Shown piece by piece: positions 2,242 through 25,167 of a stretch of DNA of 46,517 nt. Below the pieces are notes generated by a model. The model did not search any database and was not told the DNA's origin. It saw only the letters and a list, made by a program, of their open reading frames with translations. A program made the position numbers and the translations under genes. Position 1 is the first letter of the stretch, and the number at the start of each line of letters is the position of its first letter. Source of the stretch: Saccoglossus kowalevskii (Eukaryota > Hemichordata > Enteropneusta > Harrimaniidae); NCBI RefSeq assembly GCF_000003605.2, contig NW_003147296.1, positions 7,502 through 54,018 on the forward strand, written 5' to 3'.

Positions 2242-3372
2242 AAAAAATGTAACACCATAGTTCAATAGTGTTTATAAATAAAATATTGAACCACAGTTAA
2301 TTATTTATTTGTCATTATTTTAACGCTAGATGAAGCATGTTCATGTCACTCATATATGACGATATGTTAATATCAAGATTCTTATTTTATTTCCATCACA
2401 ACCGTTCGTCTTCAAAACAACAGAGCTTGTTTTATTCAGTGCTTAGTGATATTTTTTTTTTAATTATAAGAATATATTTAGAGAGAAGAGAACAAATGAA
2501 TTATTATTCAGGCCCGATCGCCGTCGCGTCTATTTGTCAGTATGTTTTTTGTGTGCGATGTGTTATCATAGTTGTGTGACATTGCTCCAATTTAATATTT
2601 CATAAGGATAATTAACCAATTCCTTGTGTGGCTACTACTTTCTTGCATTATTAATTTAGATATAGATAATGTACATGTTCATAATAACGCATATTTTAAT
2701 AATTCAAACAAATACAAAACTAGTACGTTGAATGACATGTCAATGAGCTATACTGTTGTACAGACTCGCTCTCTCGTGAATAGCTCAGGAAGTGTTGTTA
2801 ATTCTCAATTCATCTGTGGCCAAATGTTGTAAGACTACATGTCGCCTAATCATGCAAATATGTAATAATAATTCTCGCTGCAATATATTCATCCCCTGTC
2901 ACTAATTTAATACTGTAAAATTAATTCATGTGTCTATTGCAGTGAACCAATATTTTACTCCATTACGCTATGGTATGCATCAGACTATATAGTGTTCATG
3001 TCACACAGAAGCAGAATTAAATACACATTTGTCACATTATAAGCAATAAAATATTTTTGTTATACTTCTAATATTGCATATTGTTCATTTATCTCCCCTG
3101 CATGTTTCCATTTGCCATTCTATTCCCTGCCGCAGGTCGTTCTGGGCATAGGCCCACCCCTTTTTTATGTAAATTTTCCATGCTTAAGACCCTGGGCGCT
3201 TACCCGGACAAGCACGGTATAAACAATTTCGACACTGTACACAATACATACTCGTGAAACAAGTTTGAAACAACGATATTTCTAAGTTTACCAATTATGT
3301 CGAACATGGTACTACTAGTATATTCATTGCTGTAACAATTAAAATCAAAAATAATCATACTCTTTTTTGAAG
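2242..3372. other. Region upstream of gene A, no exon resolved
   Basis: No coding segment can be supported here. The first recognisable exon of gene A begins at 3373 with the last base of a codon, so an upstream exon must supply the initiator or the preceding residues. It may lie here or further left. No TATA box or initiator stands out from the AT-rich background. Confidence 0.4.
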
Positions 3373-3697
3373 GTATTTAAAAAAAAAGAATCCACATTAT
3401 ACCAATGAAGAAGTCGACTTATCCGGACACTCAATAACGACAAACAACTTAGAAGAAAGAAATCAACAGCTCGTGTCAGGAGGTACACACGATATACAGA
3501 GTGAGAAATCTATGAAAGAGGTAGTTGAAGAATTCGGATTGAGCACTACCACCCATGGTGTTTCTCACATCGTTTCAGCCACAAATCGTTGTAGGAGATT
3601 AACTTGGATGATAATCCTGTTCGTTGCGTTTTCCGTTCTTTTGTTACAACTGGCACTATTGGTAAAACAATACTTCGAATACAATGTCAATGTTCAG
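3373..3697 (+). CDS. Gene A exon: N-terminus and TM1
   Basis: The acceptor TTTTTTGAAG precedes the exon and the donor is CAG|GTCAGT. The frame is open from 3374, with no ATG until Met47, and the aligned paralogue shares the same exon start (RYLK). It encodes EEFGLSTTTHGVSHIVSA, which contains the family's conserved His-Gly motif, then a hydrophobic TM1 and the typical YFEYNVNVQ that leads into the ectodomain. It ends in phase 0. This exon is clearly more diverged from gene B than the next two. Confidence 0.88.
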
Positions 3698-9600: not shown

Positions 9601-12600
9601 ATGCTATATAGAATGAACAGTTATAATGAAAGTAGTTCAAACACAATGCAGTGATACATGAACCAACCGTGCCCTTATGAGGGAGTAGCCGAACTTTACT
9701 GCGATTAGGCCAAGGAACACCTCGCAATCCTCGACTCCCTGTCCTTTAATACATGAACATAAAACTAAGGCTCTCATCCCGATCAACAATTGTGGTTTTC
9801 TCACACGTTGGCACATTTTTCTATCCCACCACATGTTGCACAGTGTAGTTGTTATCACAGTACATTTATTTCCATACTTGTCTCTTATATGACGGGATAT
9901 TATATAAAAATCCCAGTCATATCTAAATTATTTGAAGCAGTTTGTACATGGATCCCAATGATGTACTTCAACAAGTCTGGAATATGTTTGTCCATTATAG
10001 TTTTCTTTATCTTACCCTTTATTAACTGTATGCGTCATTCCCCCTTTGCCACTTCGACCATGCAGAAAACATACCAGTGTGCCACCACTACGATGTCCTT
10101 TACGTATGTTTATATGGTAGGCTGTACTCAATCACATAACAGTTAAATACAAGATCAAAAACGCACGTGTCTGCTTTTCGATACCATGGTTTCATTGTAA
10201 AAGAAAAGTTGTGCCACGAATATATGGATACTCTGAGATGACGTGGACATGTGGCCAAACTACCCAATGAATAATGTCTGCATGCCTAATCCATTTAAGC
10301 CATGTAATCTTTAGCATTTCGGAGAAAACCTTACTTTCTCAATACACATATGTAAATTCCCGAACAGGCTTGGCATACGACTCCGACTGAAACATTGATT
10401 TTAAACAGTCTCCTCTGGAAGCATAAATAAGGCTCCGTCTGGTGCAACATTCGGTATTTTGGCCACCAGTGAACAAGAATATCACCCAAGGGCTTTGCAA
10501 TAATGTTAGTTCATGTGCCTCAGATAATTCTACTTCTGGATCTATTGAGATGAACTATGGCCAATTTAGACGCACGGAGTCATATTCCGACTTGGAACAG
10601 TGTAACCTTTGGATCCTGGATCTGTATTGCAGATAGCTGTTGTTTCATCAACTGAACTGATGTTTCCAAGTGTCACAGTTTGTAATACCAACAAACTACG
10701 ACGATCTGCCGTACGAGATACAAATTATAGTGATTTACTGGCTGTGGATACTGACTTAGTTCTACCATACTATGGTATGTAGAAATATAGTACACTTCTA
10801 ACAATATTCAGTAGGACTGCGGAATGGAAACATGGTCTTGAGATGTATGCCTATGCTGTTGATAAATATTGACATATTAGAACTTTGTCTTTGTCGCAAG
10901 ACCGCAAATTTACTATTGCAATAAAGAGTATGGCATACATTATTTGGATACATAATCTGAATAGGTTCACAGGGCATGTCCTACATTTCTATTTTTTTCA
11001 CATTTTGTAATCCATGCAATACTAAGTCAAAATTAGCTTCTGTTATCAAAATGACGCACATAAATAACACGTGTAATTTGATTGGATCATGATTATTCGT
11101 TCACACTACACATACAGTTAATTTAAAGGTTGTACAAATGTAATGCTTATTTCACTTTACTCCACAGTGCCCTGTATGGATGGCGATTTCAACTGTACCA
11201 ATGGTATACATTGTATTAAACAATATCTTGTGTGTGATGGAATAATTCATTGTGAAGATAAAAGTGATGAAAATGATTGTTTTTATGGTAAATTAAATAA
11301 CAAAATTCAAAATAAAAAAAAAACTGTCGTAAATGGAGATTCGACATACAAATCTTAAACCAGACTTAACTGGTAGTTATTGTACCCCTACGAACAAGTT
11401 AATCAGATATAGTAGTAATGTTAACTTAGCCGTAACTGGTAGTTATTGTACCCTTACGAGCACGTAAATCTAAGATGTAGTAGCAATGTTAACCCAGACT
11501 AAACTGGTAGTTATTGTACCCCTACGAACAAGTTAATCAGATATAGTAGTAATGTTAACTTAGCCGTAACTGGTAGTTATTGTACCCTTACGAGCACGTA
11601 AATCTAAGATATAGTAGCAATGTTAACCCAGACTAAACTGGTAGCTATTGTACCCCTACGAGCGCGTTAATCGAATATATATAGTACCAATGTTAACACT
11701 GTAAATTTGTCTGAAATTGTATCATACCACTGGTTTTATTCGGCGTTTCACGAAGGCCTTTAAAAGTGTAATCTGTATGTAGAATCGTATATTATAGCCC
11801 ACAATGCATTGCGCCATCCGCGTGTCAACCAGGCGCGGGGAAAATATGAACACTTGACTTTGTCATAGACTGAAGGACTAATAATCAAAGATGATCAATT
11901 GTGTGTGATAATGATTAAACGTCGTTTCCTAATTACAGAAATCATACTCATAGTTCATAATCAACTTCCATTCAATAATATGAATCAAAGTGAATTATAT
12001 ATCATGTGATATAATGACGCTTTTCAGGCGAATTCCAATGTCATGCTTATTATAGGCAACCATCAATGTACGTGTTCGATTGGTAAACATAGTCACTCAT
12101 TTAACATTCTAAATTGATATCAGAATATGTTAACAAACATCATCAAAGTCTAACAAAGACATACATACTTTGATGTTGTTAGGTGAATGTGGCAAAGACG
12201 AATTTCACTGTGATAATGGCAGCGAACAAGGGGCGTGTATACCATTAAATCTGGTTTGTGATAAAATATTGGACTGTTACGATGGCCAAGACGAAGATAA
12301 ATGTGGTAAGTACATACTAACCACGTGAATATTAAATATGTCACAAAATTAAATAATTGTTTACCAAGTTTAATTGAAATCTGGATTTTGATTTATCATT
12401 AGTTTAACTATAAATTAGATAATTATGTATACATATTATTAATATTTAAGGATATAAACAATTAATAAGATCTGCATATTACCATAATAAAGATCATTGA
12501 AAAAAAAATAATCACACAGAAGAATATACGGTCATAACAAACTTCATATTGTAATATAAATTGTCATGTCCCCATTCATTATGAATACTAATTATTCAAG

Positions 12601-15600
12601 GTGAAAAATGTGTAAGGGTATGTATATTTACGTCTTTAATATTTTCAGAATGTGATGTAATGACAGATTATAGATGTATCCTCTCATTAGAGTGTATTTC
12701 TAAGGTCAAAACATGCGACGGTGAATACGATTGTCGTGATGGCAGTGATGAAAGCAATACAGTATGTGGTAAGCATATGATACGTGATTATAAACCTATG
12801 TCAACCAAATCAACGGAAATTAAAAGACAAATTGAACACAGACATTCTTTAGAAAACAATTTTAACTACTAACAATTTATAAAAATAATAATTATTTAAA
12901 TGTTTGTCCGTCATACAGAACATTGTAGTTTGACATGTAATGCACCATTTTATTTTACGCCGTTGGAATTTACCTATTTGTAAAATATCATGGGAGCGTT
13001 AGTTTCAGGCAGGCTGCATTTTTCTTCTCAATATAAGATACGTTTTTGGCTAAATCGTCATTGCAATACAACATTTGTTATTATTTAAAATAAAAAAAAT
13101 TGGGCGTATTTGTTATTCAACAGAGACACCATTAACGAATATTGCTCCAATGGCTCCGTCGTCACTGCAGCATGCTACTTACGCAGACCCTGAACTGGCA
13201 TATGATGGGAATACCAGTACATGCTCTATGACATATACTATCTATGAACCATTCTGGTCAATTGATTTGGGTTCAAATGCTTTGGTATATGATGTAACTA
13301 TTACGCACAATGGCAACTATGAATGTAAGTATAGTTTCTTTATATTGCATTTCTAGTTCTATTGATGGGTGAGTATATATAACTTATACCGTAAATATAA
13401 AAAGCAAATATACAATTATATATATATTAGAAATCAATGTAGAGTAATTTTGTATTGGTTTCCGAATCGACTATGAACGGTCTTCGAACTTACCGTGAGT
13501 TGTGTCATAGCCACGCGACACAAATTCGTATGTATCTGAAAATTGTGACGAACTGTATACTACAGAAGTACAAAAACACGTAAAAATTTCGAGTCCCGAT
13601 TTTATAATTTACTGAAAGGGTGGGCTTAGGAACTGATTTTCTGTTCTGATTAGTGACAAATACCGTAATACTGTTATTCATTGTGTTCCATGTTGCTACA
13701 TTTACTCAGTTGATACCAATTTGAGAATTGTGGCATGCGTTACGAGTATAAATATATGTTTTTCAAGTGGAAACATGAAATCATTATTATATTTGCAAGA
13801 TGCAAGTCTCACCAACGCTGAAATAAGAATTGGTGGGGACAACCATTTCCTCGAGAATGAACTGTGTACGGCGAGACTACTTCCAACTCAGACTTCAAGT
13901 TTGACATTCACCGTAGAATGTGACGATCCATTGTATGGACGGTATCTAAGTATCCAGGTTATGGAATCTACACAATCTTTGATATTGTGTGAAGTGGAAA
14001 TTATGGCTGTAGGTGAGTTCACACTACTTATCATAAGGCAGAACGCTACTCGCGCATTTACTACGTTTACGTTTCAATGATTGCCTTGCCGAAGATATTG
14101 TACGGCACACACTGCAATGTGCATTCAAGAACGATGTTTCAGAACAAAACAAAGCGATCAATTGTGATCAAGATTTGATGAATAATGCTGTAATGGGTGA
14201 TTCAAATTCAACCGGGTTAATCCTATTTAACCGAAATCGATTGTACTGACTCGTAAGTGAAAGTAGTAGGTAGCGCGTCTACCTAGTGTGAAGAGGCGAT
14301 TGTAGTGATCGCGAGTTCGAACCCCGTACGTCACATTGTATTTGTGAGTTTGTTTACATGTACAATTATTGAATAACATAGCATGTCGCAAGTTCTATAG
14401 ACAAAATCAACGATGTCTTGAACATTAACGTTTTCAGCTCGTAGAAATATGGACGACGTGTAGTCAATTTTGAAATGTAGTAAAGGATACTAATGTCCTC
14501 TCTGCTTGTCAAACATTTGAGAAAGTAGACGGGGATTTGATAATTCAAAAAGAAAACTGTTGTACTTATATTCGAATCTATGTGAAGTACGACTGAGGTA
14601 GATGTGACTGCTGTTTTCCCAATAATGTTTGCTGTAACTTATCATTGCGAATGCAGTTTGTGACCTAACACAGATCATGTGCAGTTAAAGAACATTATAA
14701 AACAGAATATAGATATGAAAGGTGCACCTACATTTACTCACTAAGCTATATAAAAAAACGTCTTATTCCAGTGAATTCTCTATCGAATGTGGCATATGGC
14801 AAACCTGTCGAACAAAGTAGTCAGTATAGAGATGGAAGCGCCATTAAAGCTGTAGACGGTGATACAAGCAGTGATTACTCTCATCATAGTTGTATGCATA
14901 CCCAGTTTGAATATGAGCCGTGGTGGAGAGTTGATGTTGGATATCAATGTGAAATACAAGATATTGTGATTACCAACAGACTGGATTGCTGTGGTGCGTA
15001 CACGACATGTTTAAAATGGGTTGTGAATAAAATAATATGTAAAGTAAAATACGTTCACCTTCCCTTGACTCATAGTTATGTGGCAGGAGTATTTTTACAG
15101 TGTTGTTACAAACTACCAAACCACACCAAACTAACGAGATTCATGATCCCAATCATGTGAGAGACTGTCAGCAGCCCAATTACAATACGTAGGGGCATTT
15201 AGCTAATTACTTACATGTCGCGTTCATATAAATATTTTATGATTGACTTCATTGAGTATTGGTTGCCTAATATTCATACACGAAATGTACACAGATGACC
15301 GAATAACAAACACCACTGAAGCTCCTATTTAAAATTGAGTTTAATCGCATGAAGATTGTCAGTAATCAATAGAGCAATAATAAATGAATAAGTCAATTAA
15401 TTAATTAATTGATGCAGTTAGTATATGACAATTGTCTTACATAAAACTATTGTAACAATATATCACCTGCGATAGAAAGATGAGGTTTGGACGGAATATA
15501 GGTTTCCTGAAATTAATTTCGACGGCGTTTCATGAGGAGATGAATGAATGCTATATTTTACTAGGAAATCGTTTAATTGGTGCCGAGGTGAGAGTTGGAA

Positions 15601-18600
15601 TTAGTAAGTCACTGAACGAAAGCAACACACTATGTGGTATTGTGACACGTGACAATATTGACGAAATTGACATTGCCATTAACTGCGGAGATAACGTGGT
15701 GGGAAGATACGTCAGTATTCAGATATTAAACAGAACAGATTACCTACATGTATGCGAAGTGCAAGTATTTGGCAAAGGTAAGCAATCGTATTTTAAAAGG
15801 AAGATATTTATTTATTTATTTATTATTAAGCTCATTGTCGTTGACCCTTAGTTCAGGTTCAATCACAGCAATGTGCTAGGTATACTACACCTACTTAATT
15901 TGTTATGTGACTAATTCTTTTAAAATTCATCGGTCAATTCATACTGTGTGCCATTATTGTCCAACTGTGTGTTATAGTTTGCTCTATATATCTGGTTACA
16001 CGCTCAGGTTATACGCTCGTATACACTTGATAAATTCATCATAGATAATTGAAAATGATTTATAAGTTGGTGACTTCTCGTAGTAATATCGTAATATATA
16101 TCCATTCCCCAGTTGCGGTTGATACGCTTTCAAATGTGGCATTTAATAAGTCTGCGTATATGAGCAGTGTTTGGTTTGGTAATACAGCTGATAAAGCCGT
16201 TGATGGCAACACCTACCCTGTACTTGATTCAGGAACGTGTATCCACAGTGCTGAAGAAAGTGAACCATGGTGGAGAGTTGATCTCGGTGGAATTTATTTC
16301 GTGTACAAAGTGACTCTTTACAATAGACTAGACTGTTGTGGTATGTAAAAATAATATGTATATTCTATCTGCATGCTTGTCTAATCGGAGACAAATAAAT
16401 ATGCTGACTAATGTCAAACCTCCTCCCACCGATGGCTTTGAAAGATATTGTCCACATATAGCAGTCCACATAAAGAGTTCTGGAAATGTGGCAATATTTG
16501 ATAATTTACATCTGAATATGGACCATGCTCATTAATATAAGGCTAACATTGATAGGATGGACCAATACATATGAGAGTGAAAACATATCCCCCTACGAAT
16601 CATATATGCTGCATGTTACGATAGAATGTGTTTTATTGTATAAAAACGATCACACTTTTATTGGCGTACTCACAATCAGAAAAAAATTTCCATTAAATGA
16701 ACAAATAACAAATAACACACTTTAATCACAGGCTTAACAGGGAACAAATTTAGAAGCCTGATAGTACAAATAGTCAGTCTCTCAAAACTTAACATTAATA
16801 CTACTCGAAAATGTACATAACAAAGAATACAAACATATATGAAAATTAAGCAAATATAAAGTATCACGAAATCAGATTAACACCGCTAATGTATACAAAA
16901 ACAAGTAGAATTTAAACAAAGCAAAGAAATTGAAGCTGTACATATTATGTTTAGGTTAATAGTTCAAATACTAATGATTGAATAGCGATCAACTTTCAGA
17001 ATGCTCACAATTACCCACGTGTTTGTGGTCGAGTAATAATATGTAAATTACATTATTCATGAATGCATGGAAAACGAAATGATGCCCGCTGACATGCTAA
17101 ATACACAAATAATCTGGGCAAATGTAAAATGCCTAAACTTAATAATAAAGGAAACCGGAAATAACTCATTACTTTTCTCTTGTTTGTATACTATATAGTA
17201 AAAACATCAACTATGTATATAGACATCTAAGTAAACTGGTAACAAGATTAAAGAGAAATTTCATGGAACGACCAGTCACTGTTTACTGAGTAAACAATGT
17301 ACCTCTATTTTGTTCTTGTAGAGAAACGATTGGCTGGAGCTGCTGTTCGTGTTGGGTACTATGAAGATGCACAACAAAACCTCAGATGTGGTCAACAAAT
17401 AATCCCTCAGATTACAAGTTGGAGGGAAATACACAGGGAATGTTCCACTCCTATTTTGGGCAGATTCGTCAGTGTACAGATAGAGGGAGTTGATAGTGGA
17501 TTTTTACATATATGTGAGGTAGAGGTTTTTGCAGATGGTAAGTAAAAGTACATGTATCATGATCGACATGATGTGCATTTTCGTACGATCAGGTATATAT
17601 TTTGTGACTTGATCTTCTTTTTTTCCAGAGCTATTGATAGATCCAATTGAAAAGATAAAGCAACGTGCATTATTAGGACTTTTTGACAAACAACAATTCA
17701 GGCGACTTATATCAGACACAGGCAAAGTATACAATGATATGTCGCTCGAGAAGTGTCTGAGTAAATGCTACTTTCAGAAAGCGTTTGTATGCAAATCGTT
17801 CGACTATATTCAAGATATGTATGTATGTACAATTTACAGCGTTGACGCCACTTACGAGAACTCTAGCTTGATGATTGATGGAAGTGCCAATTATTATCAA
17901 CGACTTGTTCACGGAGGTATGGACATTCATACTATAGCCACATTATTGCTCGATTACTTATATATATGATCTTAACGGTTGAAAAAAGAATCGCCTGGGT
18001 TAAAAAAGCGCAAGCTTCCTTCATTTACTTAGATTTCTTTTTATAGTTTACATTGCCTCAGAAAACTCATCTCACTGCCCACCTGATATGTGGCAATGTG
18101 GTTCGGGAGAATGTCTGCATACATACAGAGTATGTGACGTCATCATAGATTGTCTGGACTCATCTGATGAAGAGGGTTGTACGTTCAAAGAAAACAGTGA
18201 GTATAATACTTCATCGAGACAATCCATGACGTTGGCGCAGATATGTTTATGCGCTAATTCTTGGCTTTTCGATCACAAATAGAGTAGATGAAATGTTGTG
18301 TTAAAGCGGGAAGCTCGCCACCTGCGCACGCGCGGGAATTGAGTCCCAACCGACGGTAACACACGCTAAAAACGCAAATGTAAACAATGACACGCTATGG
18401 CCATCTGACGCATGCTCAGGTGACGACTCTCCCGCTTTAAGGTATAGATACACACCAGTGCTGTGCTATCATCGATAGTCTATAGCCAAGACTGTTCAAT
18501 GACCAAATATTTTAATTTGTTATATTGAGGAAGAGGGCTTGCACATTGAAACTTTAGTTTCCATGAATGGAAATTGCTTATTACATTATTACTAAAATTA

Positions 18601-21600
18601 CTTTAAGAATTATACATGAATGGCATCAGCGAATTGTTTTTGGAAAGATGTTATCTTATAACGGCTAAATTATATTTCGCCAAACATAAATACTACAGTG
18701 TATAAACATGCAACAACTCATGTGGTTTAATGATAATATACAAATTGGTTACATCTATTACAAGACGTGGAGTAAAAGATGTATCAGGCTATTGAATGTT
18801 ACATTAGATGATAATGATAACTTATTGATGAACAGGAAAGTAATTGAGACAAAATATATTTATAAGAAGCTATTAAATAGAAAAATTGATTTGAAAAATT
18901 ACAAATTAAATGGCAAAATAAATGTGAATACAATATACCTGGATGATGACTGCACAAATATTTTACATTAGCAAAAAATACAACAATTGATTTTTCGATT
19001 TGAGGTAATTGGTTATATGTAAGAGGGTTAGTGTGTATAGCACAATGTAACTGGTGCAGTTCAGATATTGAAAGCATGTGACATCATTTCTGGTTTTCTG
19101 ATTATGCAAACATCCCGTAGAGAGAAATTAATATTTTAATACAGAGTCAGATTTACCATGGCAATATACTATACGCTATTATGTATGAATGTAAGCAAAA
19201 TAAAACGGGTTAATCTGTCCCGAAGATTTCTTAGCCAAGCAAACTAGGTATGATCACAGTTCATATTTGATTGATTGCATTTTGCTTTCAAGTATGCACC
19301 TACCTATTTCTCTGGAACAAACTTACTTTGTCAAGCAATGACTTTCAATCTTGATATAAGTGTATAATATGAAAATGTCAAAGGCATTTAAAGTATTGAC
19401 GCGGACTATGTCATTTGACATAATCATTTGTTCCATATGTTTATGTTGTAATTGAATACAAATATCTTCTCGAGATAGTAATTGTTGACACAATAATTGT
19501 CATTTACATGGGATAGTTCAGACAATAACAACGGTATTCAAGGTAAATTGTCGGTAGGCGACTGAATCTGGCTACCATCGATTGTTCAATGTTATAAAAT
19601 TGTGAATTGTAGGGACACGAGGACCAGAACATAAACACCTGTCATTATGGATGGACGTTTTCAAAAACATAACGGAGGATGTGTTGGTGTATCAACGCTT
19701 CTTCAAAAGTGTTTATAGAGACAATTTATTCGACCGTGTTAAAGGCGAAGATCCTCCCGACTGGACACGATTCAAAACCTTCAGCAGTACACCGGATCAC
19801 AGTGACCTTAGACATGTGCTGAAACTAACTGAAGCAGAGATCTTGGCCTACGGTCATCAGATGGATGACTTCATTCTACAGTGCAATTATAATTCAGAGA
19901 AATGTGAACCAAGGTATTGTATATTAAGAATACTATCATATCTAGCCAATAATAAGTGAAAAGAGTGTACATTCCCACGAATACATCTCACACGATTTAC
20001 AATAAGCATCATCATGTACTAACAACTAACAAGTACACAGCAATACACGGCAAAATCAAAGAAAACTAATATAAATGAACATCATGGCACACATCAAAGA
20101 AGTGATGTCACGTGTTTCGAAATGCACATAATTCCAAATACATGTTCTGAAATGTTGTACATTAGGCAACTGTATATCTAAAAACGAGGCCTCGTATATA
20201 TGCCATTGAAAATGTGTCAGTTTCTCAATATTCATATAATGTGGCATGTATGTCGCACGTGACAAATCAAGTATTCCTAGTCGTACAAACCGTTGACCAC
20301 CTGCTTATTGTTTTAAAAATTATCAATATGCTACAACTGTACTTACTAATAATATTTTCAGTGATTTCGTGGCGTTTCAAAATGATTTCTACGGGAACTG
20401 CTTCCAGTTTAATGCTGGGAGTAACCAGACAGCGAAAAGGGCCATGGGAACCGGATCATCATATGGTAAGTAGTAAAGAAAATAAATAGACAATGAGAAT
20501 ATGATCATTATACTGTATGCAATGAGCAAATAACGTAGTAACGTTGACAGAAGTAAAACGAATGAGCAAATTAAGAAGTGGAAAATAGAAGCATGTTATG
20601 GTACGTAATGAGCAAATCATGCGAACAATGTGAACATGGCCACGCTGAGTAATGAGCAGGTGAAGTATACAACGGTAACATGTACAATAATGGGTAAAAA
20701 CTGAGTAAATAACATCGAAAATGGGACAGCACTACCATATTATAAGTTATAAGCAATTGAAGTAACCACCATATTGCACCATCTGCAATGAGCTAAGAAA
20801 GTGGACAATGGAACACAATTATCACATGACAAGCAAAAAAATGAAGTGAACAGTGGTAACATGTTCTTCATGGGTAAGCAGTGAGTAGTCAATTGAACCT
20901 TGCAACCATATACTAAGCAATGAGAAATTGGAATGAACATAATCGCAATGCAACAATTGGATATTATTAAGTAATTGGTAATAAAATGATTTGGGGAAAA
21001 ACATTAGTTAACACTGATTAAATGGAGTTTGAAATGGCAACCATCATATATTGTGAGCAAAAGAGTGCGAGGAAGCGGGTTCATGCGGCTTGTTGTCATG
21101 ACATCAATAGCGAATTTAAGCATGAGCTCACATGCTGCTTTCTATCCACTAGTCCACAACATAAATGAAATTCAGTCTTTGAAACTAAGTCACGGAATCT
21201 AAACTACGAATCAAAGTTTGTTATAAATTTCAGGTTTACAACTAACCCTTTTCACGGAGCAAGAAGATTATCTCAGTATATACGGACAAGATTCTGGTGC
21301 CAGGGTTGCAATCCTTCCCCGTGGCATTTTGTCTTTTCCAGTTGATGAAGGTATTACTGTAAAACCTGGAACGATCACGTCCATAGCACTGAAAGAGGTA
21401 TGATTAGGTACAACGGTTTATTTTGAATACTCCAGCTGTGAATAAACATTCCATCGTTACTTACATAGACAGAATAGGCAACGAACTGAAGACAACGGAT
21501 TCTATATCACATTAGGATTCAGTTTTGTCAGTTTCTGAGAGCCACTTTTCAATAACATAACAATCCCCGTAGATCAGATGCTTGTATATTACCGCATTTA

Positions 21601-24600
21601 ATAAAAAAAATTGTCGCGACTGACTCCCGATATACATTAGTGTTTGTACGGGTTATACTGATATTTGTTGGCACTAGTATAAGTTACTTTAATCACATAC
21701 CTGATCCAAAATGTAAATTGCATGTAAGTCAGTTATAACAAATATATGTATACACACAAACGAAATAAAGTAACAGAAAAGAGGAAGTAAAGATTAGTAG
21801 ACCAGAATAAGAAACACGGCAGCTGGCACACAATAAGGGGATTGTACCACTAAAACATTTTGGGATGATAACAATTCATTGATCCATACACATTGCATGC
21901 CAAACAATAGCAGCCAAAGTGGTGTGATACATGATTCAGCATGTTAGGTATTATAGTACCATATTCTATATCATTATTCGTTCCAGTAGAAATGTATGTT
22001 TTTTGCCCTGCACACGAGAGTGAGCTAGTTCGAGTTTCAATTCTGCAATGCATCAAAGTAAGATAATTTAATGGGACAGTTAACACAAGATGTGGAATAC
22101 ATTGTTTTGGATTGAAGCAAAGTATAATCTTTAACGATTTTCCACTTTCACAAAATATATATTTTACATCAATGATGGTTAATACAATTCTTTCAGAAAG
22201 TGAATGTTCGCATGCCATGGCCATACGGCAACTGTACCAATGGACAGACTGAGCAGACAGTATACGACCAGCAAAATAATACTTTGTACTCTATACTAGT
22301 AAGTTTATTAGTTATTAGTTGTTGTGTATTCATCGGCAAGTCTGTGTTTGCATATTAAGCATCAAAACCATGTACCGCCTACAAATACACAACCATATTT
22401 AATATACGTACATAATAAAGGTTTTCTGAAATCAACATTATAATTAAAGCCAAGAAAAATTTTGAACGTATCACAGTTCATCAATTAAAATATATAACTG
22501 ACGACTATTTAATTTTTGCTCATTCCAATGTATGAATGTATTCGAAATTCTATTGGGGAATTTCAATCGATTTTTCAAAAAAATATTGTACATAATTTAT
22601 ATTATAGTCATGTGAGAAGGCATGCTCAGAAAACGCATTGATACACTACTGTGGTTGTTCTGAGTATCTATTTACCGACGCACCACGATGTCAACTTTTA
22701 AACGAAACACAAGGTATGTTATTGGCAGTTATTTGCTCCAGAAGACTTCTACAATACATGTAGTTGCACACATACGTGTAATTGTGTAGAATCTGTGGAA
22801 ATTTGATCACAACTAGAGGCAATATTAATATGTTCAATATGTATCGAGAGAATAATTTAGCAAAATAATATGTAATAACAGGCCGTCATTGTTTGTTCAA
22901 TATGTTTAATGATGTTGTGTTGTGTCGTAATTGTGCTGGAAGCAACGAGTAGAATTATTATACAATTTTAGGTAGACATATTCGTGTATTTAATATTTTA
23001 TATGTTGCGATTACACAGAACTATGTCGACAGTTAACCAAATATTTGTATAATATCGGTGAGATAAAATGCAGCTGTCCTTCTCCGTGCAAGTAAGTATT
23101 ACAATTTCAAATTAAGAGACAATGTCAGAAGATACTTGTAATACTAATTATTATCATACAACTGTCGCCATAGTACCATAAGTTACAGCGTGACGTAATG
23201 ATGTGGTATTGCATTCTAACTTATTAATAAATATGATTTTCAAATATAGAACTATTACACGATATTTCCAAAATGGCGAACATGTTTGAACACGAAGAAA
23301 AAGAAAGTGCCACAAATTATCGACTTATTGCTCAGTTATGGGCTTCATAAACCAAGCGGTTGAATTAATAGGATGTATAATAATAAGGTTAACAGTTACG
23401 GTTAAGGTTAAATAGATAACGCAACGTATATACGCATTGTACGAGGTCGCATCGACCAACGCACACTCTCGTTTTACCATCTTTATGCCTACTTCACAGT
23501 TCTTCACCTTAAAATATCAATCATGTAATACTGATATATTCTTTATTGTATAAACCTTTCTTATCGTTTTAATACATCCATATCATTTTACTACATGTTT
23601 TTGCCATTGTAATACGGGTCTCCGAATAATTCCACATTTCCCCCTAGAATCGTTATCTCACTTAATCTTAGTTCGAGAGAGAAAAAAATTGAGGTGGTGT
23701 CGAAAATGCACTTCGAAGCCCATATTGCTGATCCTGTATGTGATTGAAACATGATAACATTGGAAGCATCATTATACATTTTGGAAGAAACCTGAACTGA
23801 AAGTGCAATTTGAAACGAGATTGACCATTCTTCTCGTAGTAATTCTGTTCCGTAGTGCAGCGGAACAGGGCAGAGTTGCCACTGTAAGGTCGGGTTTTCA
23901 TTGTAGCAAATATAAATTCACATTGAACGAAAACATTCAAAACAACAACAACAATTATCATACACATTAACCGAATTAACATACTAAAGACTGTCGCACA
24001 TGAAGTCCCAGTTTGTGTTTATCTTGAATTTATTATTATAGTACTGAAAACTATGTTAAATGAAGCAGTTACACGTCAAAAAACTACTACATTTTATCAC
24101 TCTTTTATACTTTGCCGCGAATAATCTTTAAGCATTACATCCGGTGTGTAGTTTATAACATTTGTTTTGTAATCTGTGTATATTTCAGAGAAACAAACTA
24201 CGATATGACCTTATCACAGTCATTGTGGCCATCAGATGTATATCTGGTATGTATTTATTAAACAATAATTATTAAACAATAACTGTGAATTTCCTACTTT
24301 TCATTACGTGAATTGATTATTATTTTTATGCATATTATATCTTATGTAGAACAAACTTCTAAAGACGTTGAAATGGCAACATTCCAAGTTAAAGAACGTG
24401 AACGATATGCAGTCAGCCAGGTAATCATATGACGTAGAAACAATAACAAATGTACAGATATACATTTGCTCCATTATTCGTATGACCAATTAACCTAATA
24501 ATACTTGTATTGATGAATATGTGTGATGTGTGAGATAAATATGAAAAAAAATGTACCAACTGATATACGCATGTAGTGTTGTTGGTCGTTTGATATTTGA

Positions 24601-25167
24601 ACACTTGTTCATACATTGACTGATCTGTGTTATGTAATGTATGGAAAATGATTCACAAATATTTGCATGTTAACGGTATATGATAACAACAATGTCTTAC
24701 TATCTTTATTACCTAGTTCAAACCTTGTGCGACTAGAAATATACTTTGAAACTTTAAACTACGAGTCGGTGTACGAATTGGCTGCATACAAGGTAGTTAA
24801 ATCCTGTTTCTTGTATATGGCCATTGCATTTTCTGCTATACTAGCTGCTCCACATAGCTGTAAACGAAATACTGTATTTGGTTCTCCTATTTTCACAAAA
24901 TCCAGTTAAGGTGCGATTGTTTTTACGTGTGTTATTTATCTATTTTGTTAATTCATTACACTTGTGTTATTATTTCAGTGGGAAGACGTCCTGAGTGATA
25001 TCGGAGGAACATTTGGACTTTATGTTGGAATATCAATCATATCCTTCTGTGAATTTGTGAGTTTTGTTGTTGTACTTTGTCGGCAATATCGCAAGAAAAA
25101 CAAAGACACAGTTGGTCAGTGGAACCAGAAACAGTCGCGTGTTAGAGAACACGCTGTAATAACATAA
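3373..25167 (+). CDS. Gene A: mosaic DEG/ENaC channel with LDLa, fucolectin and PAN modules (23 exons, spliced)
   Basis: This is a plasma-membrane cation-channel subunit of the degenerin/ENaC/ASIC family. Domains by residue, counted from the first full codon at 3374: cytosolic N-terminus with the HG gating motif (61-62); TM1 (about 77-97); first ectodomain strand with FPSVTVCN (109-155); three LDLa repeats (156-276); three fucolectin FTP modules (277-414, 415-559, 560-707); PAN/apple (708-803); a fourth LDLa (804-853); finger, knuckle and palm of the channel with its Cys-rich pattern (854-1205); TM2 with GIS filter (about 1216-1240); a short basic cytosolic tail and stop. The total is about 1267 residues, against 500-600 for ordinary family members. 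All exon phases join without a break, so the gene looks intact. The gating stimulus is unknown; an acid, peptide or glycan ligand are all possible. The initiator is not in the first listed exon frame before residue 47, so a 5' exon is missing from this model. Confidence 0.9.
3721..4533. mobile_element. Long-TIR MITE-like DNA transposon
   Basis: The two ends are imperfect inverted repeats of more than 100 bp. The left end begins TTTTCACCGG and continues through GTTCCACAGCAGCTTG. The reverse complement of the right end begins TTTTCACCGG and also contains GTTCCACAGCAGCTTG. Further in, GGTGCGC...TTAGCAAC...GAACGT...CTGTGACG is shared by both arms. The right arm carries about 130 bp of extra sequence (4332-4460). 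No transposase frame is present. I see no clear target-site duplication, so the outer boundaries are approximate. Confidence 0.75.
3972..4089. mobile_element. 118-bp MITE nested in the larger MITE, 7-bp target duplication
   Basis: Perfect 14-bp terminal inverted repeats, CACAGTCCCTCTAT at 3972-3985 and ATAGAGGGACTGTG at 4076-4089, are flanked by the direct repeat TTTAGAG at 3965-3971 and 4090-4096. This is a complete insertion scar. It entered after the host MITE was in place. There is no coding capacity. A 7-bp duplication does not settle the superfamily: hAT elements normally give 8 bp. Confidence 0.8.
5243..5263. other. 3' UTR hairpin of the LINE
   Basis: A perfect 10-bp stem, AAAAACCTTC and GAAGGTTTTT around a single A, sits about 10 bases inside an AATAAAG/ATTATT-type LINE 3' terminus (minus strand). 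A stem here is the sort of structure that the LINE's own reverse transcriptase could recognise. That role is inferred. Confidence 0.5.
5823..7140 (-). pseudogene. LINE reverse transcriptase remnant
   Basis: The minus strand carries GCNLSPNLFNILPDDL (RT block with the usual G-x-x-L-S-P-x-L-F) followed by QYAVDIALISETEGGL. The latter is the catalytic Y-A-D-D block, with the first Asp changed to Val (about 6437-6426). A TAA at 6555-6557 interrupts the GVxQG block. The downstream segment 6089-5823 (MYGAEIW..., FYRFILGVSK, AELGRL) matches the post-RT region of such LINEs. The substituted Asp and the stop make it non-functional. Confidence 0.8.
7393..8330 (-). pseudogene. LINE AP-type endonuclease remnant
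   Basis: Three hallmark motifs appear in order on the minus strand: LQETW (8267-8281), AGDFNS (around 7942-7955) and SDHCPICFSV (around 7632-7605). These are the catalytic Glu, Asp/Asn and Asp/His blocks of apurinic-type LINE endonucleases. The GGVSILFKSG block at about 8180-8150 fits the same fold. They lie in different frames with stops between, so no active enzyme can be made. Confidence 0.75.
8330..8515 (-). pseudogene. SGNH hydrolase-like fragment of the LINE
   Basis: In shifted frames the minus strand encodes VDILIIGDPMTN (near 8505-8470) and then MVILHVGTNDVSD (near 8358-8325). These are blocks I and III of the SGNH/GDSL esterase fold found in ORFs of CR1/L2-type LINEs. The nucleophile block normally reads GDS; here the codon at about 8479-8484 is CCC (Pro) instead of a serine codon, so the active site is lost. 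The fragment stops soon after block III, where endonuclease sequence follows almost at once. Confidence 0.6.
8867..9463 (-). pseudogene. LINE ORF1 remnant with viroplasmin-like (RNase H1 N-terminal type) domain
   Basis: From an ATG at 9463 the minus strand reads a short basic leader, an in-frame TAG, then MNFYAVVIGQKTG, TTWKEC and NGYPG (about 9325-9236). After a frameshift the match resumes as ATEDAEQYIQMYA. This order (Y-A-V-V-x-G, G-I, T-x-W-x-E-C, G-Y/F-P-G, then EEAE-Y) is that of the viroplasmin/RNase H1 N-terminal fold, which binds RNA-DNA hybrids. A second shifted frame (9115-8867) is Asn- and Ser-rich and ends in an amphipathic stretch. The domain could bind the retrotransposition intermediate. 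It is clearly inactive here. Confidence 0.65.
9476..10632. other. Intron 1 remainder, nothing recognised
   Basis: Open stretches at 9790-10146 (plus) and 10442-10636 (plus) have no recognisable motifs and lack matching splice phases. No RNA gene or repeat is evident. The last bases, TCTGTATTGCAG, form the acceptor of the next exon and are shared with gene B. Confidence 0.5.
10633..10774 (+). CDS. Gene A exon: first ectodomain strand, FPSVTVCN
   Basis: Acceptor TATTGCAG, donor TATG|GTATGT; starts phase 0 and ends phase 1. It encodes IAVVSSTELMFPSVTVCNTN followed by KLRRSAV. In the family, FPAVTICN-x-N immediately follows TM1 and holds the first conserved ectodomain cysteine. The shuffled modules begin right after this exon, where ordinary channels continue into the finger. 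Confidence 0.9.
10775..11167 (+). other. Intron, nothing recognised
   Basis: AT-rich intron of about 390 bp. It has no similarity by eye to the equivalent intron of gene B (40128-40424), although the flanking exons are over 90 percent identical. Confidence 0.6.
11168..11287 (+). CDS. Gene A exon: LDLa repeat 1
   Basis: This is a single 120-bp exon, phase 1 on both sides (acceptor CTCCACAG, donor TATG|GTAAAT). It has six cysteines in LDLa spacing and the Ca-binding end CDGIIHCEDKSDENDC. LDLa repeats are about 40-residue Ca-dependent ligand-binding modules of extracellular proteins. It differs from the gene B copy at about 7 of 120 bases. Confidence 0.92.
11358..11700. repeat. Intronic tandem array, alternating 66/68-bp units
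   Basis: The phrase CTGGTAGTTATTGTACCC begins at 11370, 11436, 11504, 11570 and 11638 (the last with one base changed), so spacings are 66, 68, 66 and 68. Alternate units are nearly identical (ATCAGATATAGTAG against ATCTAAGAT), showing a dimeric higher-order unit of 134 bp. It is non-coding and lies 70 bp after the LDLa1 donor. Confidence 0.9.
11701..12182 (+). other. Intron remainder, nothing recognised
   Basis: AT-rich intron between the tandem array and the LDLa2 acceptor (GTTGTTAG). No conserved element is seen. Confidence 0.5.
12183..12305 (+). CDS. Gene A exon: LDLa repeat 2
   Basis: A 123-bp exon, phase 1-1, donor TGTG|GTAAGT. It encodes ECGKDEFHCDNGSEQGAC and then VCDKILDCYDGQDEDKC: six cysteines with the acidic Ca-binding cluster intact. 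Its counterpart in gene B differs at about 18 of 123 bases. Confidence 0.92.
12306..12648 (+). other. Intron, nothing recognised
   Basis: A 343-bp AT-rich intron with a clean GTAAGT donor and TTTTCAG acceptor. No further structure is seen. Confidence 0.6.
12649..12768 (+). CDS. Gene A exon: LDLa repeat 3
   Basis: A 120-bp exon, phase 1-1, acceptor ATTTTCAG, donor TGTG|GTAAGC. It encodes ECDVMTDYRC, LECISKVKTC and CDGEYDCRDGSDESNTVC, with six cysteines and an intact Ca-binding cluster. The gene B copy has a GC donor at the same point. Confidence 0.92.
13048..13075. other. Single 28-bp sequence homologous to the gene B minisatellite unit
   Basis: In the intron after LDLa3 this stretch includes GTCATTGCAATACAACATT and matches the 28-bp unit repeated about 100 times in the same intron of gene B at about 24 of 28 positions. 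It occurs only once here. It looks like the single-copy ancestor of the array. Confidence 0.7.
13124..13324 (+). CDS. Gene A exon: FTP (fucolectin) module 1, first half
   Basis: A 201-bp exon, phase 1-1, acceptor TTCAACAG, donor GAAT|GTAAGT. It encodes NIAPMAPSS, ELAYDGNTSTCS, EPFWSIDLGS and VYDVTITHNGNYE. This follows the fucolectin/tachylectin-4/pentraxin FTP plan (N-x-A, A-x-DGNT, EPWWRVDLG, V-x-I-x-N). The second Trp is kept, but the His of the CxH-T loop and the RLDCC end are missing, so the sugar site is lost. Confidence 0.85.
13325..13799 (+). other. Intron inside FTP module 1
   Basis: The GTAAGT donor and TTTGCAAG acceptor define a phase-1 intron at the same position as the internal introns of FTP modules 2 and 3. 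Nothing else is recognised. Confidence 0.6.
13800..14012 (+). CDS. Gene A exon: FTP module 1, second half
   Basis: A 213-bp exon, phase 1-1, donor GTAG|GTGAGT. It encodes LTNAEIRIGGD, ENELCTARL, VECDDPLYGRYLSIQVMEST and LILCEVEIMAV. This is the C-terminal part of an FTP fold (RL-x-GA-x-V-x-VG, C, C, GRYVSIQ, LCEVEV). The acceptor choice at AAG|AT rather than nearby AGs gives the same length as the other two modules. Confidence 0.87.
14013..14771 (+). other. Intron containing a tRNA-like repeat
   Basis: A 759-bp intron between FTP modules 1 and 2. Apart from the tRNA-like segment at 14257-14334 I see no structure. Confidence 0.6.
14257..14334 (+). repeat. tRNA-like / SINE-head sequence
   Basis: It has a good internal box A (TAGTAGGTAGCGCGTC) and an exact box B core (GAGTTCGAACCCCG) at normal spacing, and the ends pair weakly (GTGA with TCAC). 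The T-stem has mismatches and no proper anticodon arm can be drawn, so this is more likely a tRNA-derived SINE or pseudogene than a working tRNA. Confidence 0.45.
14772..14993 (+). CDS. Gene A exon: FTP module 2, first half
   Basis: A 222-bp exon, phase 1-1, acceptor TTATTCCAG, donor TGTG|GTGCGT. It encodes SNVAYGKPVEQSS, AVDGDTSSDY, SCMHTQ, EPWWRVDVG and ITNRLDCC, nearly the FTP consensus. The His at 14897 and the Arg at 14978 are 27 residues apart, as are His52 and Arg79 of eel fucolectin, and the adjacent Cys pair of RLDCC is present. Sugar binding is therefore plausible. Confidence 0.93.
14994..15564 (+). other. Intron inside FTP module 2
   Basis: A GTGCGT donor and TTTTACTAG acceptor at the module's conserved phase-1 position. 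It contains an AATT-rich microsatellite near 15395-15415 and nothing else recognised. Confidence 0.6.
15565..15777 (+). CDS. Gene A exon: FTP module 2, second half
   Basis: A 213-bp exon, phase 1-1, donor AAAG|GTAAGC. It encodes NRLIGAEVRVG, NTLCGIVTR, INCGDNVVGRYVSIQIL and LHVCEVQVFGK. The Arg at 15570-15572 falls seven residues after the RLDCC Arg, matching the third fucose-binding residue (Arg86) of eel fucolectin. Confidence 0.93.
15778..16112 (+). other. Intron between FTP modules 2 and 3
   Basis: 335 bp, GTAAGC donor and TCCCCAG acceptor. Nothing recognised. Confidence 0.6.
16113..16340 (+). CDS. Gene A exon: FTP module 3, first half
   Basis: A 228-bp exon, phase 1-1, acceptor ATTCCCCAG, donor TGTG|GTATGT. 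It encodes LSNVAFNKSAYMSS, KAVDGNTYPV, GTCIHS, EPWWRVDLGG and YNRLDCC. His at 16244 and Arg at 16325 keep the 27-residue spacing of the fucolectin binding site. Confidence 0.93.
16341..17321 (+). other. Intron inside FTP module 3
   Basis: A 981-bp AT-rich intron with GTATGT donor and TTCTTGTAG acceptor, at the conserved internal FTP position. Short open stretches at 16338-16725 are uninterpretable. Confidence 0.6.
17322..17537 (+). CDS. Gene A exon: FTP module 3, second half
   Basis: A 216-bp exon, phase 1-1, donor GATG|GTAAGT. It encodes KRLAGAAVRVGYYED, LRCGQQI, RECSTPILGRFVSVQIEG and LHICEVEVFAD. Arg at 17327-17329 completes the His-Arg-Arg set of this module. It is followed 91 bp later by the PAN exon. 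Confidence 0.93.
17629..17916 (+). CDS. Gene A exon: PAN/apple-like domain
   Basis: A 288-bp exon, phase 1-1, acceptor TTTTTTCCAG, donor GGAG|GTATGG. It encodes KVYNDMSLEKCLSKCYFQ, FVCKSFDY and MYVCTIYSVD, then YYQRL. The pattern C-x3-C, C-K-S-F-x-Y, C-x-I-Y/L-S matches PAN/apple modules, which bind proteins or carbohydrates. The N-terminal third (QRALLGLFDKQQFRR) is less typical and may be a linker. Confidence 0.8.
18047..18196 (+). CDS. Gene A exon: LDLa repeat 4
   Basis: A 150-bp exon, phase 1-1, acceptor TTTTTATAG, donor AACA|GTGAGT. It encodes HCPPDMWQCGSGECLHTYRV and then CDVIIDCLDSSDEEGC, a canonical six-Cys LDLa with intact Ca cluster. It is the last inserted module; the next exon resumes channel sequence. 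Confidence 0.92.
18197..19612 (+). other. Intron with a TTAA-flanked MITE
   Basis: A 1.4-kb intron. Apart from the MITE at 18301-18440 nothing is recognised; the open stretch at 18708-18971 is an AT-rich chance frame. Confidence 0.6.
18301..18440. mobile_element. 140-bp MITE with TTAA ends (piggyBac-like)
   Basis: The ends are TTAAAGCGGGA and TCCCGCTTTAA. The inverted repeats match at about 20 of 24 positions (to CACCTG on one arm and CAGGTG on the other). TTAA at both outer edges is the target duplication expected of piggyBac-type transposition. The element is clearly more GC-rich than its surroundings and has no coding capacity. Confidence 0.75.
19613..19913 (+). CDS. Gene A exon: channel finger resumes
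   Basis: A 301-bp exon, starts phase 1 and ends phase 2 (CCAAG|GTATTG). It encodes LWMDVFKNITEDV, TRFKTFSSTP, LKLTEAEILAYGHQMDDFIL and QCNYNSEKCEP. In ASIC-type channels this corresponds to the finger helices ending in the D-x-L-x-x-C-x-(F/Y)-x-G-x-x-C motif. It is the first exon with asymmetric phase, marking the end of the shuffled block. Confidence 0.9.
19914..20361 (+). other. Intron, nothing recognised
   Basis: A 448-bp intron, GTATTG donor, TATTTTCAG acceptor. Confidence 0.6.
20362..20465 (+). CDS. Gene A exon: YGNCFQFN motif
   Basis: A 104-bp exon, phase 2 in and phase 1 out, donor TATG|GTAAGT. It encodes DFVAFQNDFYGNCFQFNAGS, the family's highly conserved D-F-x5-YG-x-C-(Y/F)-x-F-N-(S/A)-G segment of the ectodomain. 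Confidence 0.93.
20500..21060. repeat. Degenerate tandem repeat in intron
   Basis: The phrase AATGAGCAAAT or close variants (AATGAGCAGG, CAATGAGCTAAG, CAATGAGAAAT) recurs at intervals of roughly 40-60 bp, with linked phrases such as GGTAACATGTxC and ACCATAT. It appears to be an old, diverged minisatellite filling the intron between 20466 and 21233. Unit boundaries cannot be fixed by eye. Confidence 0.5.
21234..21397 (+). CDS. Gene A exon: ectodomain LQLTLF...YGQDSGARV
   Basis: A 164-bp exon, phase 1 in and phase 0 out, donor AAAGAG|GTATGA. It encodes GLQLTLFTEQEDYLSIYGQD, then GARVAILPRG, FPVDEG and KPGTITSIALKE. This matches the G-L-x-L-x-L-x(9)-Y...GV-x-V-x-I-H...P...G-x-x-V-x-P-G segment of the family. 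Confidence 0.92.
21398..22196 (+). other. Intron, nothing recognised
   Basis: A 799-bp intron. An antisense open stretch at 21850-22224 overlaps the following exon and shows no motif. Confidence 0.6.
22197..22298 (+). CDS. Gene A exon: PYGNC segment
   Basis: A 102-bp exon, phase 0-0, acceptor CTTTCAG, donor ACTA|GTAAGT. It encodes KVNVRMPWPYGNCTNGQTEQ and YDQQNNTLYSIL, matching the family's R-L-x-x-P-Y-x-x-C block. Confidence 0.92.
22299..22607 (+). other. Intron, nothing recognised
   Basis: A 309-bp AT-rich intron, acceptor TTATATTATAG. Confidence 0.6.
22608..22713 (+). CDS. Gene A exon: cysteine-rich CxxxC...CGC
   Basis: A 106-bp exon, phase 0 in and phase 1 out, donor CAAG|GTATGT. It encodes SCEKACSENALIHYCGCSEY and then DAPRCQLL, the family's C-x-x-x-C...C-x-C...C thumb disulfide set. 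Confidence 0.92.
22714..23018 (+). other. Intron, nothing recognised
   Basis: A 305-bp intron, acceptor GATTACACAG. Confidence 0.6.
23019..23091 (+). CDS. Gene A exon: CSCPSPC
   Basis: A 73-bp exon, phase 1 in and phase 2 out, donor TGCAA|GTAAGT. It encodes ELCRQLTKYLYN and EIKCSCPSPC, the conserved C-x-C-P-x-x-C at the base of the thumb. Confidence 0.9.
23092..24188 (+). other. Intron, nothing recognised
   Basis: A 1.1-kb intron. The antisense frames at 23591-23982 contain no motif I recognise. Confidence 0.6.
24189..24246 (+). CDS. Gene A exon: ETNYDMTLSQSLWPS
   Basis: A 58-bp exon, phase 2 in and phase 0 out, donor TCTG|GTATGT. With the two preceding bases it encodes KETNYDMTLSQSLWPSDVYL, matching the family motif C-x-x-T-x-Y-x-x-x-x-S-x-S-x-W-P-S. 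It is too short to be found as an isolated open frame. Confidence 0.93.
24350..24420 (+). CDS. Gene A exon: pre-palm linker
   Basis: A 71-bp exon, phase 0 in and phase 2 out, acceptor TTATGTAG, donor GCCAG|GTAATC. It encodes NKLLKTLKWQHSKLKN, a basic helix in the region between the WPS motif and the N-x-x-x-L-x-I/V-Y-F strand. This part is variable in the family, so the call rests on phase and position. Confidence 0.8.
24421..24716 (+). other. Intron, nothing recognised
   Basis: A 296-bp intron, donor GTAATC, acceptor TTACCTAG. Confidence 0.6.
24717..24792 (+). CDS. Gene A exon: LEIYFETLNYESV strand
   Basis: A 76-bp exon, phase 2 in and phase 0 out, donor AAG|GTAGTT. It encodes SNLVRLEIYFETLNYESVYE and LAAYK, matching N-x-x-x-L-x-V-Y-F-x-x-L-x-Y-E of the last extracellular strand before TM2. 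Confidence 0.93.
24979..25167 (+). CDS. Gene A terminal exon: TM2 and C-terminus
   Basis: Acceptor TTATTTCAG; phase 0; stop TAA at 25165-25167. It encodes WEDVLSDIGGTFGLYVGISI, a further hydrophobic run through EFVSFVVVL, and a short basic tail (CRQYRKKNK). D-I-G-G-x-x-G-L-x-x-G-x-S is the family's pore signature; GIS occupies the G/S-x-S selectivity-filter position. The tail has no obvious trafficking motif. Confidence 0.95.
   Translation, partial: WEDVLSDIGGTFGLYVGISIISFCEFVSFVVVLCRQYRKKNKDTVGQWNQKQSRVREHAVIT

Follow-up and report, generated by a model that had tools for sequence, protein, structure and literature searches.

Members of the DEG/ENaC superfamily are usually 500-600 residues long. 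ENaC beta and gamma, ASIC1 and FaNaC have in common two transmembrane (TM) segments, an HG motif, FPSVTVCN and a DIGG...G-x-S pore, and the inhibitory domain of ENaC lies between the finger helices. That domain is protease-sensitive and acts as a regulatory element in the finger/thumb region (excerpts of PMC10743461). The EGAS channels of C. elegans (EGF plus ASC) likewise have extracellular-type modules fused to a DEG/ENaC channel (excerpts of PMC10424705). Polycystin-1 and the sea urchin receptor for egg jelly (REJ) are membrane proteins of a channel-forming family that carry a lectin module, polycystin-1 also having an LDL module, and REJ1 binds a fucose sulfate polymer (excerpts of PMC7728438 and PMC1934368). 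F-type lectin domains (FTP) have been described in combination with other lectin, CCP and transmembrane domains, and the oyster bindins are F-type lectins in gamete recognition; the terms "ion channel", "channel" and "LDL" have no occurrence in the available text of the same review (PMC5712786, in part).

The Saccoglossus kowalevskii locus analysed here encodes a predicted DEG/ENaC subunit which, compared to these relatives, has 698 additional finger residues, so that the usual length is doubled. Unlike the ENaC inhibitory domain, the insert consists of LDLa, FTP and PAN modules and is far larger; the comparison is one of composition and size. The modules of EGAS, in contrast, are EGF, and the likeness rests on the fusion, not on its position in the channel. 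Polycystin-1 and REJ belong to another channel superfamily and carry a C-type, not an F-type, lectin, and REJ1 itself is without the large multi-TM part. Among the open-access papers listed, we found no account of an LDLa, F-type lectin or PAN module in a DEG/ENaC channel. In the available main-text portions of PMC9822975, PMC10507113, PMC10148893 and PMC11750451 neither "LDL" nor "lectin" appears, and "LDL" is also absent from that of PMC9949801. The statement of the first-pass annotation that no described channel has this module order thus still holds among these papers, animal protein databases being outside that scope; such a database may already hold predicted proteins of this kind.

The gene and its tandem twin

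The window, which is the whole stretch of 46,517 nucleotides that was analysed, corresponds to C3786:7502-54018 of a 572-Mb assembly of 4830 contigs. Copy 1 of the gene occupies window positions 3371-25167 (+). Its 23 exons, the ends of which were placed by eye on the sequence and then checked by a script, are as follows.

3371..3697, +, exon 1: cytosolic N-terminus, HG motif, TM1; donor GTCAGT
10633..10774, +, exon 2: palm strand 1 (FPSVTVCN) and presumed finger helix 1, ends in phase 1
11168..11287, +, exon 3: LDLa 1, phase 1-1, Ca-site acids present
12183..12305, +, exon 4: LDLa 2, phase 1-1
12649..12768, +, exon 5: LDLa 3, phase 1-1
13124..13324, +, exon 6: F-type lectin 1, first half, triad lost
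13800..14012, +, exon 7: F-type lectin 1, second half
14772..14993, +, exon 8: F-type lectin 2, first half; triad His and first Arg, CC pair
15565..15777, +, exon 9: F-type lectin 2, second half; second triad Arg
16113..16340, +, exon 10: F-type lectin 3, first half; 0 synonymous changes vs copy 2
17322..17537, +, exon 11: F-type lectin 3, second half
17629..17916, +, exon 12: PAN/apple module
18047..18196, +, exon 13: LDLa 4, phase 1-1
19613..19913, +, exon 14: channel resumes, remaining finger helices
20362..20465, +, exon 15: YGNCFQFN segment
21234..21397, +, exon 16: ectodomain, presumably beta-ball/palm
22197..22298, +, exon 17: ectodomain
22608..22713, +, exon 18: Cys-rich segment
23019..23091, +, exon 19: CSCPSPC
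24189..24246, +, exon 20: LWPS segment
24350..24420, +, exon 21
24717..24792, +, exon 22: final ectodomain segment ahead of TM2
24979..25167, +, exon 23: DIGG...GIS pore, TM2, cytosolic tail, stop

All 22 introns are of the GT-AG type and their phases are consistent. The joined frame has 1268 codons and a single terminal stop, the other two frames of the spliced sequence contain 73 and 112 stops, and there is no N within copy 1. The frame of exon 1 opens at 3371 and its first in-frame ATG lies at 3512; the start is provisional and a further coding exon upstream is possible. The insert spans residues 157-854 (698 residues) and consists of three LDLa modules, three F-type lectin domains, one PAN module and a fourth LDLa module. 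Introns 2 to 13, which are all those that border inserted exons, are in phase 1 (12/12), and the other 10 show mixed phases.

The first-pass annotation had proposed a single gene that unites the DEG/ENaC hallmarks with the LDLa, FTP and PAN modules, and the splice sites, the one open frame and the fitting phases bear this out. Its inner exon ends (10633, 10774, 11168, 18196, 19613 and 19913) and the gene end at 25167 were independently reproduced. It had also placed the insert in the finger domain, which stands, but ahead of the finger helices, which does not, since the insert follows the exon 2 stretch after FPSVTVCN, which we take to be finger helix 1.

The channel body was recognised by Pfam in the spliced copy 1 as ASC with 281.1 bits (cut-off 23.6) in two stretches. 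Only two hydrophobic segments exceed the threshold, residues 80-98 (TM1) and 1222-1240 (TM2), and they flank the insert; copy 2 (described below) also has two, near the protein ends. With one TM segment on either side, the insert is extracellular. The HG motif of the superfamily precedes TM1 (THGVSHI in copy 1 and AHGVSHI in copy 2), and the DIGG...G-x-S pore motif is found at TM2 (DIGGTFGLYVGIS in copy 1 and DIGGTLGLYAGIS in copy 2). The channel parts of copy 1, joined without the insert, align to ENaC gamma (9blr, E 6.7e-49), FaNaC (7yvb, E 1.6e-46) and ASIC1 (9e4a, E 3.6e-46). These alignments break off after exon 2 and resume late in exon 14, the part between being the divergent finger region. 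By every sequence feature tested, the predicted product of copy 1 is a member of DEG/ENaC.

A search of the contig with the copy 1 protein (tblastn) revealed a tandem twin beginning at window position 38601, which the first-pass annotation had left out. All 23 exons of this copy 2 are present in order. The gene continues past the window, with exons 6-23 at C3786:59961-70412, and its end by splice sites is contig position 70412. The five exons inside the window are listed here.

38601..38921, +, copy 2 exon 1 (TM1), start provisional
39986..40127, +, copy 2 exon 2
40425..40544, +, copy 2 LDLa 1
42656..42778, +, copy 2 LDLa 2
43102..43221, +, copy 2 LDLa 3, GC donor

The two copies have equal exon lengths in 20 of 23 exons and identical phases in 22 of 22 introns, and their proteins are identical at 1018 of 1263 aligned residues (81%). 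The introns of copy 2 comprise 21 of the GT-AG type and one GC-AG. The dN/dS ratio between the copies is 0.25 overall, 0.23 in the insert and 0.19 in exons 14-23; exons 1-2 are less constrained (0.56). A DNA comparison of the two gene regions gave 20 aligned blocks. These cover the 23 exons together with at most about 80 bases on their flanks and bridge three short introns (12, 20 and 22), whereas the interiors of the remaining introns do not align. Given these ratios and an alignment that leaves out most intron interiors, the insert and the channel halves both look selected as coding sequence. The strongest evidence for the predicted chimera is comparative, beginning with the tandem copy.

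Several local features of the two copies were recorded. Exon 10, the first half of FTP3, differs between them by 0 synonymous and 1 nonsynonymous change, and window 16097-16348 is 98.8% identical to C3786:61598-61849 over 252 bases; dS of the other 22 exons ranges from 0.13 to 1.2. The likeness of exon 10 probably reflects gene conversion restricted to this single lectin exon. The GC donor of copy 2 (gcaagt, window 43221) follows LDLa 3; the corresponding donor of copy 1 is GT. Runs of N occur in the contig between the two copies and within one intron of copy 2, and intron 5 of copy 2 contains a 28-base satellite with about 102 units in the window (43662-46517), adjoining an N stretch. Intron 1 of copy 1 holds, on the opposite strand (5823-8446, -), pieces of reverse-transcriptase-like frames, by eye probably a broken LINE, and intron 3, between LDLa 1 and LDLa 2, holds a tandem repeat with a 68/134-base period (11351-11697). 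There is no Rfam or tRNA match within the window. In the assembly as a whole, one COX1 match contains 7 in-frame TGA codons, consistent with an animal mitochondrial code; the erythrocruorin-linker family of annelids had no match, and neither had its control.

Related loci across the genome

The whole assembly was searched with the lectin part and the channel part of copy 1. Four further loci (one on C6, two on C309 and one on C3245) keep the module order wherever sequence is present. On C6 the order is repeated completely, from TM1 to TM2. Both C309 copies lie beside N stretches; one (C309a) is without LDLa 1-2 and the 3' end, and the other (C309b) has nothing after the first half of FTP3. The C3245 locus runs from FTP2 to TM2, and its contig ends 2.5 kb upstream. 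The paralog models exclude exons 1 and 23. As their donors (GT/GC), acceptors (AG) and phases (those of copy 1) were imposed, agreement on these points is built in. Exon lengths could vary within 30 bases, and of the 21 exons modelled on C6, 19 have the same length as in copy 1. Some paralogs may be damaged, and exon 8 of C309a was modelled poorly. On the more divergent C3226 and C2851, matches to TM1, LDLa, FTP, LDLa 4 and the finger follow in order on one strand.

With LDLa 1-3 as the query, 47 of 95 matches fell inside 30 same-strand intervals that lead from a channel N-terminus to its finger, where 0.03 would be expected if the matches were uniform over the genome; this comparison used 65 LDLa matches with 95 as the denominator, 43 N-terminal matches and 40 finger matches. 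At least 20 of the 30 intervals have an LDLa match and at least 6 an FTP match as well. These counts are lower bounds because the genome-wide searches list scored candidates only, and 20 of 30 is biased toward relatives of copy 1, as the queries came from an LDLa-carrying gene. The underlying tally of N-terminus and finger loci drew on 67 of 68 N-terminal, 65 of 95 LDLa, 19 of 29 PAN/LDLa 4, 46 of 104 channel-body and 33 of 139 FTP matches. The 30 excluded LDLa matches lie on contigs without channel-body or N-terminal matches, and the FTP matches used are those on contigs of channel loci, with the exception of a minus-strand cluster at C3226:191932-203921. As LDLa exons occupy the same position in 20 of 30 channel loci, the gene represents a family and not an oddity.

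The remaining 10 intervals have no match to LDLa 1-3, although one of them (C2855) has a match to LDLa 4, and insert-free channels are present too (C3473, C692). Finger identity to copy 1 is 57%, 53% and 56% in loci without FTP matches (C2340:1078733, C4507), compared to 43% and 38% in the FTP carriers C2851 and C3226. The fingers of FTP-free loci being nearer to copy 1 than those of FTP carriers suggests, as far as these identities go, repeated gain or loss. We also considered an insertion into an ancestral phase-1 intron, which is unsupported: in C692, the one insert-free relative considered that has an intron at this site, the likely donor is in phase 0, and two relatives on C3473 read through the insert site in one open frame.

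The searches also returned loci of other kinds. The DEG/ENaC relative at C692:72001-79000, which has no LDLa match, carries a polybasic RRRRQ near the insert site, which recalls furin-cleaved ENaC; the likely donor that follows it is in phase 0. One open frame of 1735 residues at C4670:36462-41501 accounts for 16 LDLa-like matches. Large clusters of F-type lectin exons are found on C4257, C2403 and C352 and at C3226:191932-203921, with no channel-exon match nearby. Matches to LDLa 3 (83%) and FTP1 (54% and 44%) share one strand at C289:87763-95167, where no channel exon was matched, and this is perhaps a further partial family member.

The structural half of the first-pass annotation, a DEG/ENaC subunit whose finger bears a recognition head, draws strong support from the tandem copy, the four additional loci, purifying selection and the recurrent LDLa insertions. 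On these sequence comparisons we are nearly certain that the predicted subunit carries a head of three LDLa, three FTP, one PAN and one LDLa module in its finger.

Modules of the head and predicted fucose sites

The domain search of the spliced protein that had been suggested earlier recovered ASC, four stretches of Ldl_recept_a, and three stretches each of F5_F8_type_C_2 and F5_F8_type_C, whereas PAN_1 was absent from the whole-protein scan of copy 1 at E 0.001 and appeared when its exon was scanned alone (29.8 bits, cut-off 21.4). In such single-exon scans PAN_1 scores 29.8 to 38.6 bits in 5 of 5 cases (copy 1 and four paralogs). All four LDLa modules of copy 1 have six Cys and the acidic Ca-site pattern.

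In both window copies exons 3-13 are phase 1-1 throughout, and the channel exons on either side (end of exon 2, start of exon 14) are in phase 1 as well. It is therefore predicted that any combination of head exons can be skipped in frame, and the whole insert could be spliced out by joining exon 2 to exon 14. Skipping of the whole head would, as a prediction only, leave a subunit of standard size with the junction LVLPYY-G-TRGPEHKH. Shuffling of phase-1 exon modules is the probable origin of the head; LDLa insertions are common among the channels of this genome, and FTP is confined to some of them.

F-type lectins bind fucose through a triad of His52, Arg79 and Arg86 and have a contiguous Cys82-Cys83 pair and the Ca motif h2DGx (PMC5712786, in part). 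FTP2 and FTP3 of the window copies belong by sequence to the same fold family as eel agglutinin (1k12), striped bass FBP32 (3cqo) and the oyster sperm bindins. FTP2 matches 3cqo with E 2.9e-45 and 1k12 with E 1.2e-22, and FTP3 matches both as well. When aligned to these two structures, FTP2 and FTP3 of both window copies retain the triad with its spacing, the CC pair and the Ca motif. The distance from His to the first Arg is 26 residues in 1k12 and here; the pattern H-x24, as printed in the available text of PMC5712786, fits none of 17 sequences, 1k12 among them.

Across the loci, the His-Arg-Arg triad at the 1k12 spacing is present in FTP2 of 5 of 6 and in FTP3 of 5 of 5, and AVDGD or AVDGN occupies the Ca motif in all 11 FTP2 and FTP3 sequences. 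Lectin 3 of C309b, of which the first half only is seen, was excluded from the triad counts, and for FTP2 of C309a the tblastn translation was used, since its exon 8 model is poor. FTP1 has the triad and the Ca motif in 0 of 5 loci, and in copy 1 it keeps the fold match (F5_F8_type_C_2, 40.3 bits). The CC pair is missing from FTP3 of C309a and C3245, and the second triad Arg from FTP2 of C309b. Sugar binding is hence not uniformly retained. Of the three lectin folds of the head, two thus have a predicted fucose site and the third is degenerate. With the triad, Ca motif and CC pair in place in FTP2 and FTP3 of both window copies, the glycan recognition proposed in the first-pass annotation gains support, and it is rather likely that at least one of the lectin domains binds fucose.

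Possible roles of the head

Finger helices 1-3 form the peptide pocket of FaNaC1, to which parts of an adjacent loop and subunit also contribute, and the authors of that work locate at the same corner the contacts of other members with proteases, ions and, as proposed, the matrix (excerpts of PMC11026163). The insert is attached at the finger corner that corresponds to this region. In the simplest mechanism, three subunits would assemble into a trimeric cation channel. With Ca2+, lectins 2 and 3 would bind the terminal fucose of a glycan that is secreted or belongs to a surface or the matrix, and the LDLa and PAN modules would contribute protein contacts. Engagement of the head by a fucosylated partner would then shift the finger helices and open or modulate the pore. 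There is a precedent in polycystin-1: its ectodomain includes a lectin domain that activates the channel (PMC7728438, in part). On the other hand, the EGAS channels of C. elegans are among those without significant current in oocytes (PMC10424705, in part), which counts against gating. Taken as a whole, the reading that the gene encodes a DEG/ENaC subunit whose finger head engages fucosylated ligands to open or modulate the pore is close to an even call, leaning slightly to the negative; the step of gating or modulation by fucose-type binding, taken by itself, is possible but somewhat doubtful.

Instead of gating the pore, so large a head could serve in tethering or trafficking. Adhesion and binding are frequent functions of LDLa, FTP and PAN modules, and the architecture and motifs would also be compatible with a head that anchors the channel, mechanically or by adhesion, to a fucosylated partner (matrix, mucus or adjacent cells), where force and not ligand occupancy opens the pore. 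The FaNaC1 paper names this very corner as a proposed matrix-tethering site in mechanosensitive members (PMC11026163, in part); even so, we consider such a tether unlikely. Alternatively, the lectins may act in cis on N-glycans of adjacent subunits or partners, for assembly, trafficking or autoregulation. Copy 1 has 15 N-glycosylation sequons; copy 2 has 10, of which 8 follow TM1. The lectin domain of polycystin-1 is reported to act on polycystin-2 glycans (PMC7728438, in part). We rate this cis role lower still, as distinctly unlikely.

The two remaining explanations concern the gene itself. That exon 2 can be joined to exon 14 in frame (phase 1 to phase 1), so that an insert-free channel could be made, would agree with an independent gene of LDLa, FTP and PAN exons that sits inside an intron of an otherwise ordinary channel. 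However, exons 3-13 match the channel frame at both ends, a hydrophobicity scan found in them no above-threshold segment that could serve as a signal peptide or anchor, and such nesting would be needed again at 6 FTP loci that show both flanks and for the LDLa exons of 20 of 30 channel loci, which makes it very improbable. N stretches between the copies and in one copy 2 intron might point to an assembly artefact, but copy 1 is free of N and the order recurs on other contigs; as for a pseudogene, both copies have all 23 exons open, with a dN/dS ratio typical of purifying selection. An artefact or pseudogene is strongly disfavoured, to the point of being negligible.

If we return to a ligand-engaging finger head, its interest lies in a central question of the DEG/ENaC field, the way in which a binding event at the finger leads to pore opening; so far this has been studied via peptides, protons and proteases. 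A natural lectin head there offers a defined, mutable and probably fucose-specific handle on the same corner, and it comes with a natural series of paralogs with LDLa only, with LDLa plus FTP, or with neither. In the genes modelled, inserted exons can be gained, lost or skipped without a frame shift. A broader view, which we regard as less likely than not on present evidence, is that the DEG/ENaC finger serves as a module dock (at least 20 channel loci with LDLa, and at least 8 loci also with FTP), giving rise to combinatorial channels that convert glycan or protein recognition into cation current, a class of ionotropic lectin receptors. If gating is true, glycans would be added to the direct gating ligands of the DEG/ENaC superfamily, and such channels might take part in sensing gametes, microbes or mucus.
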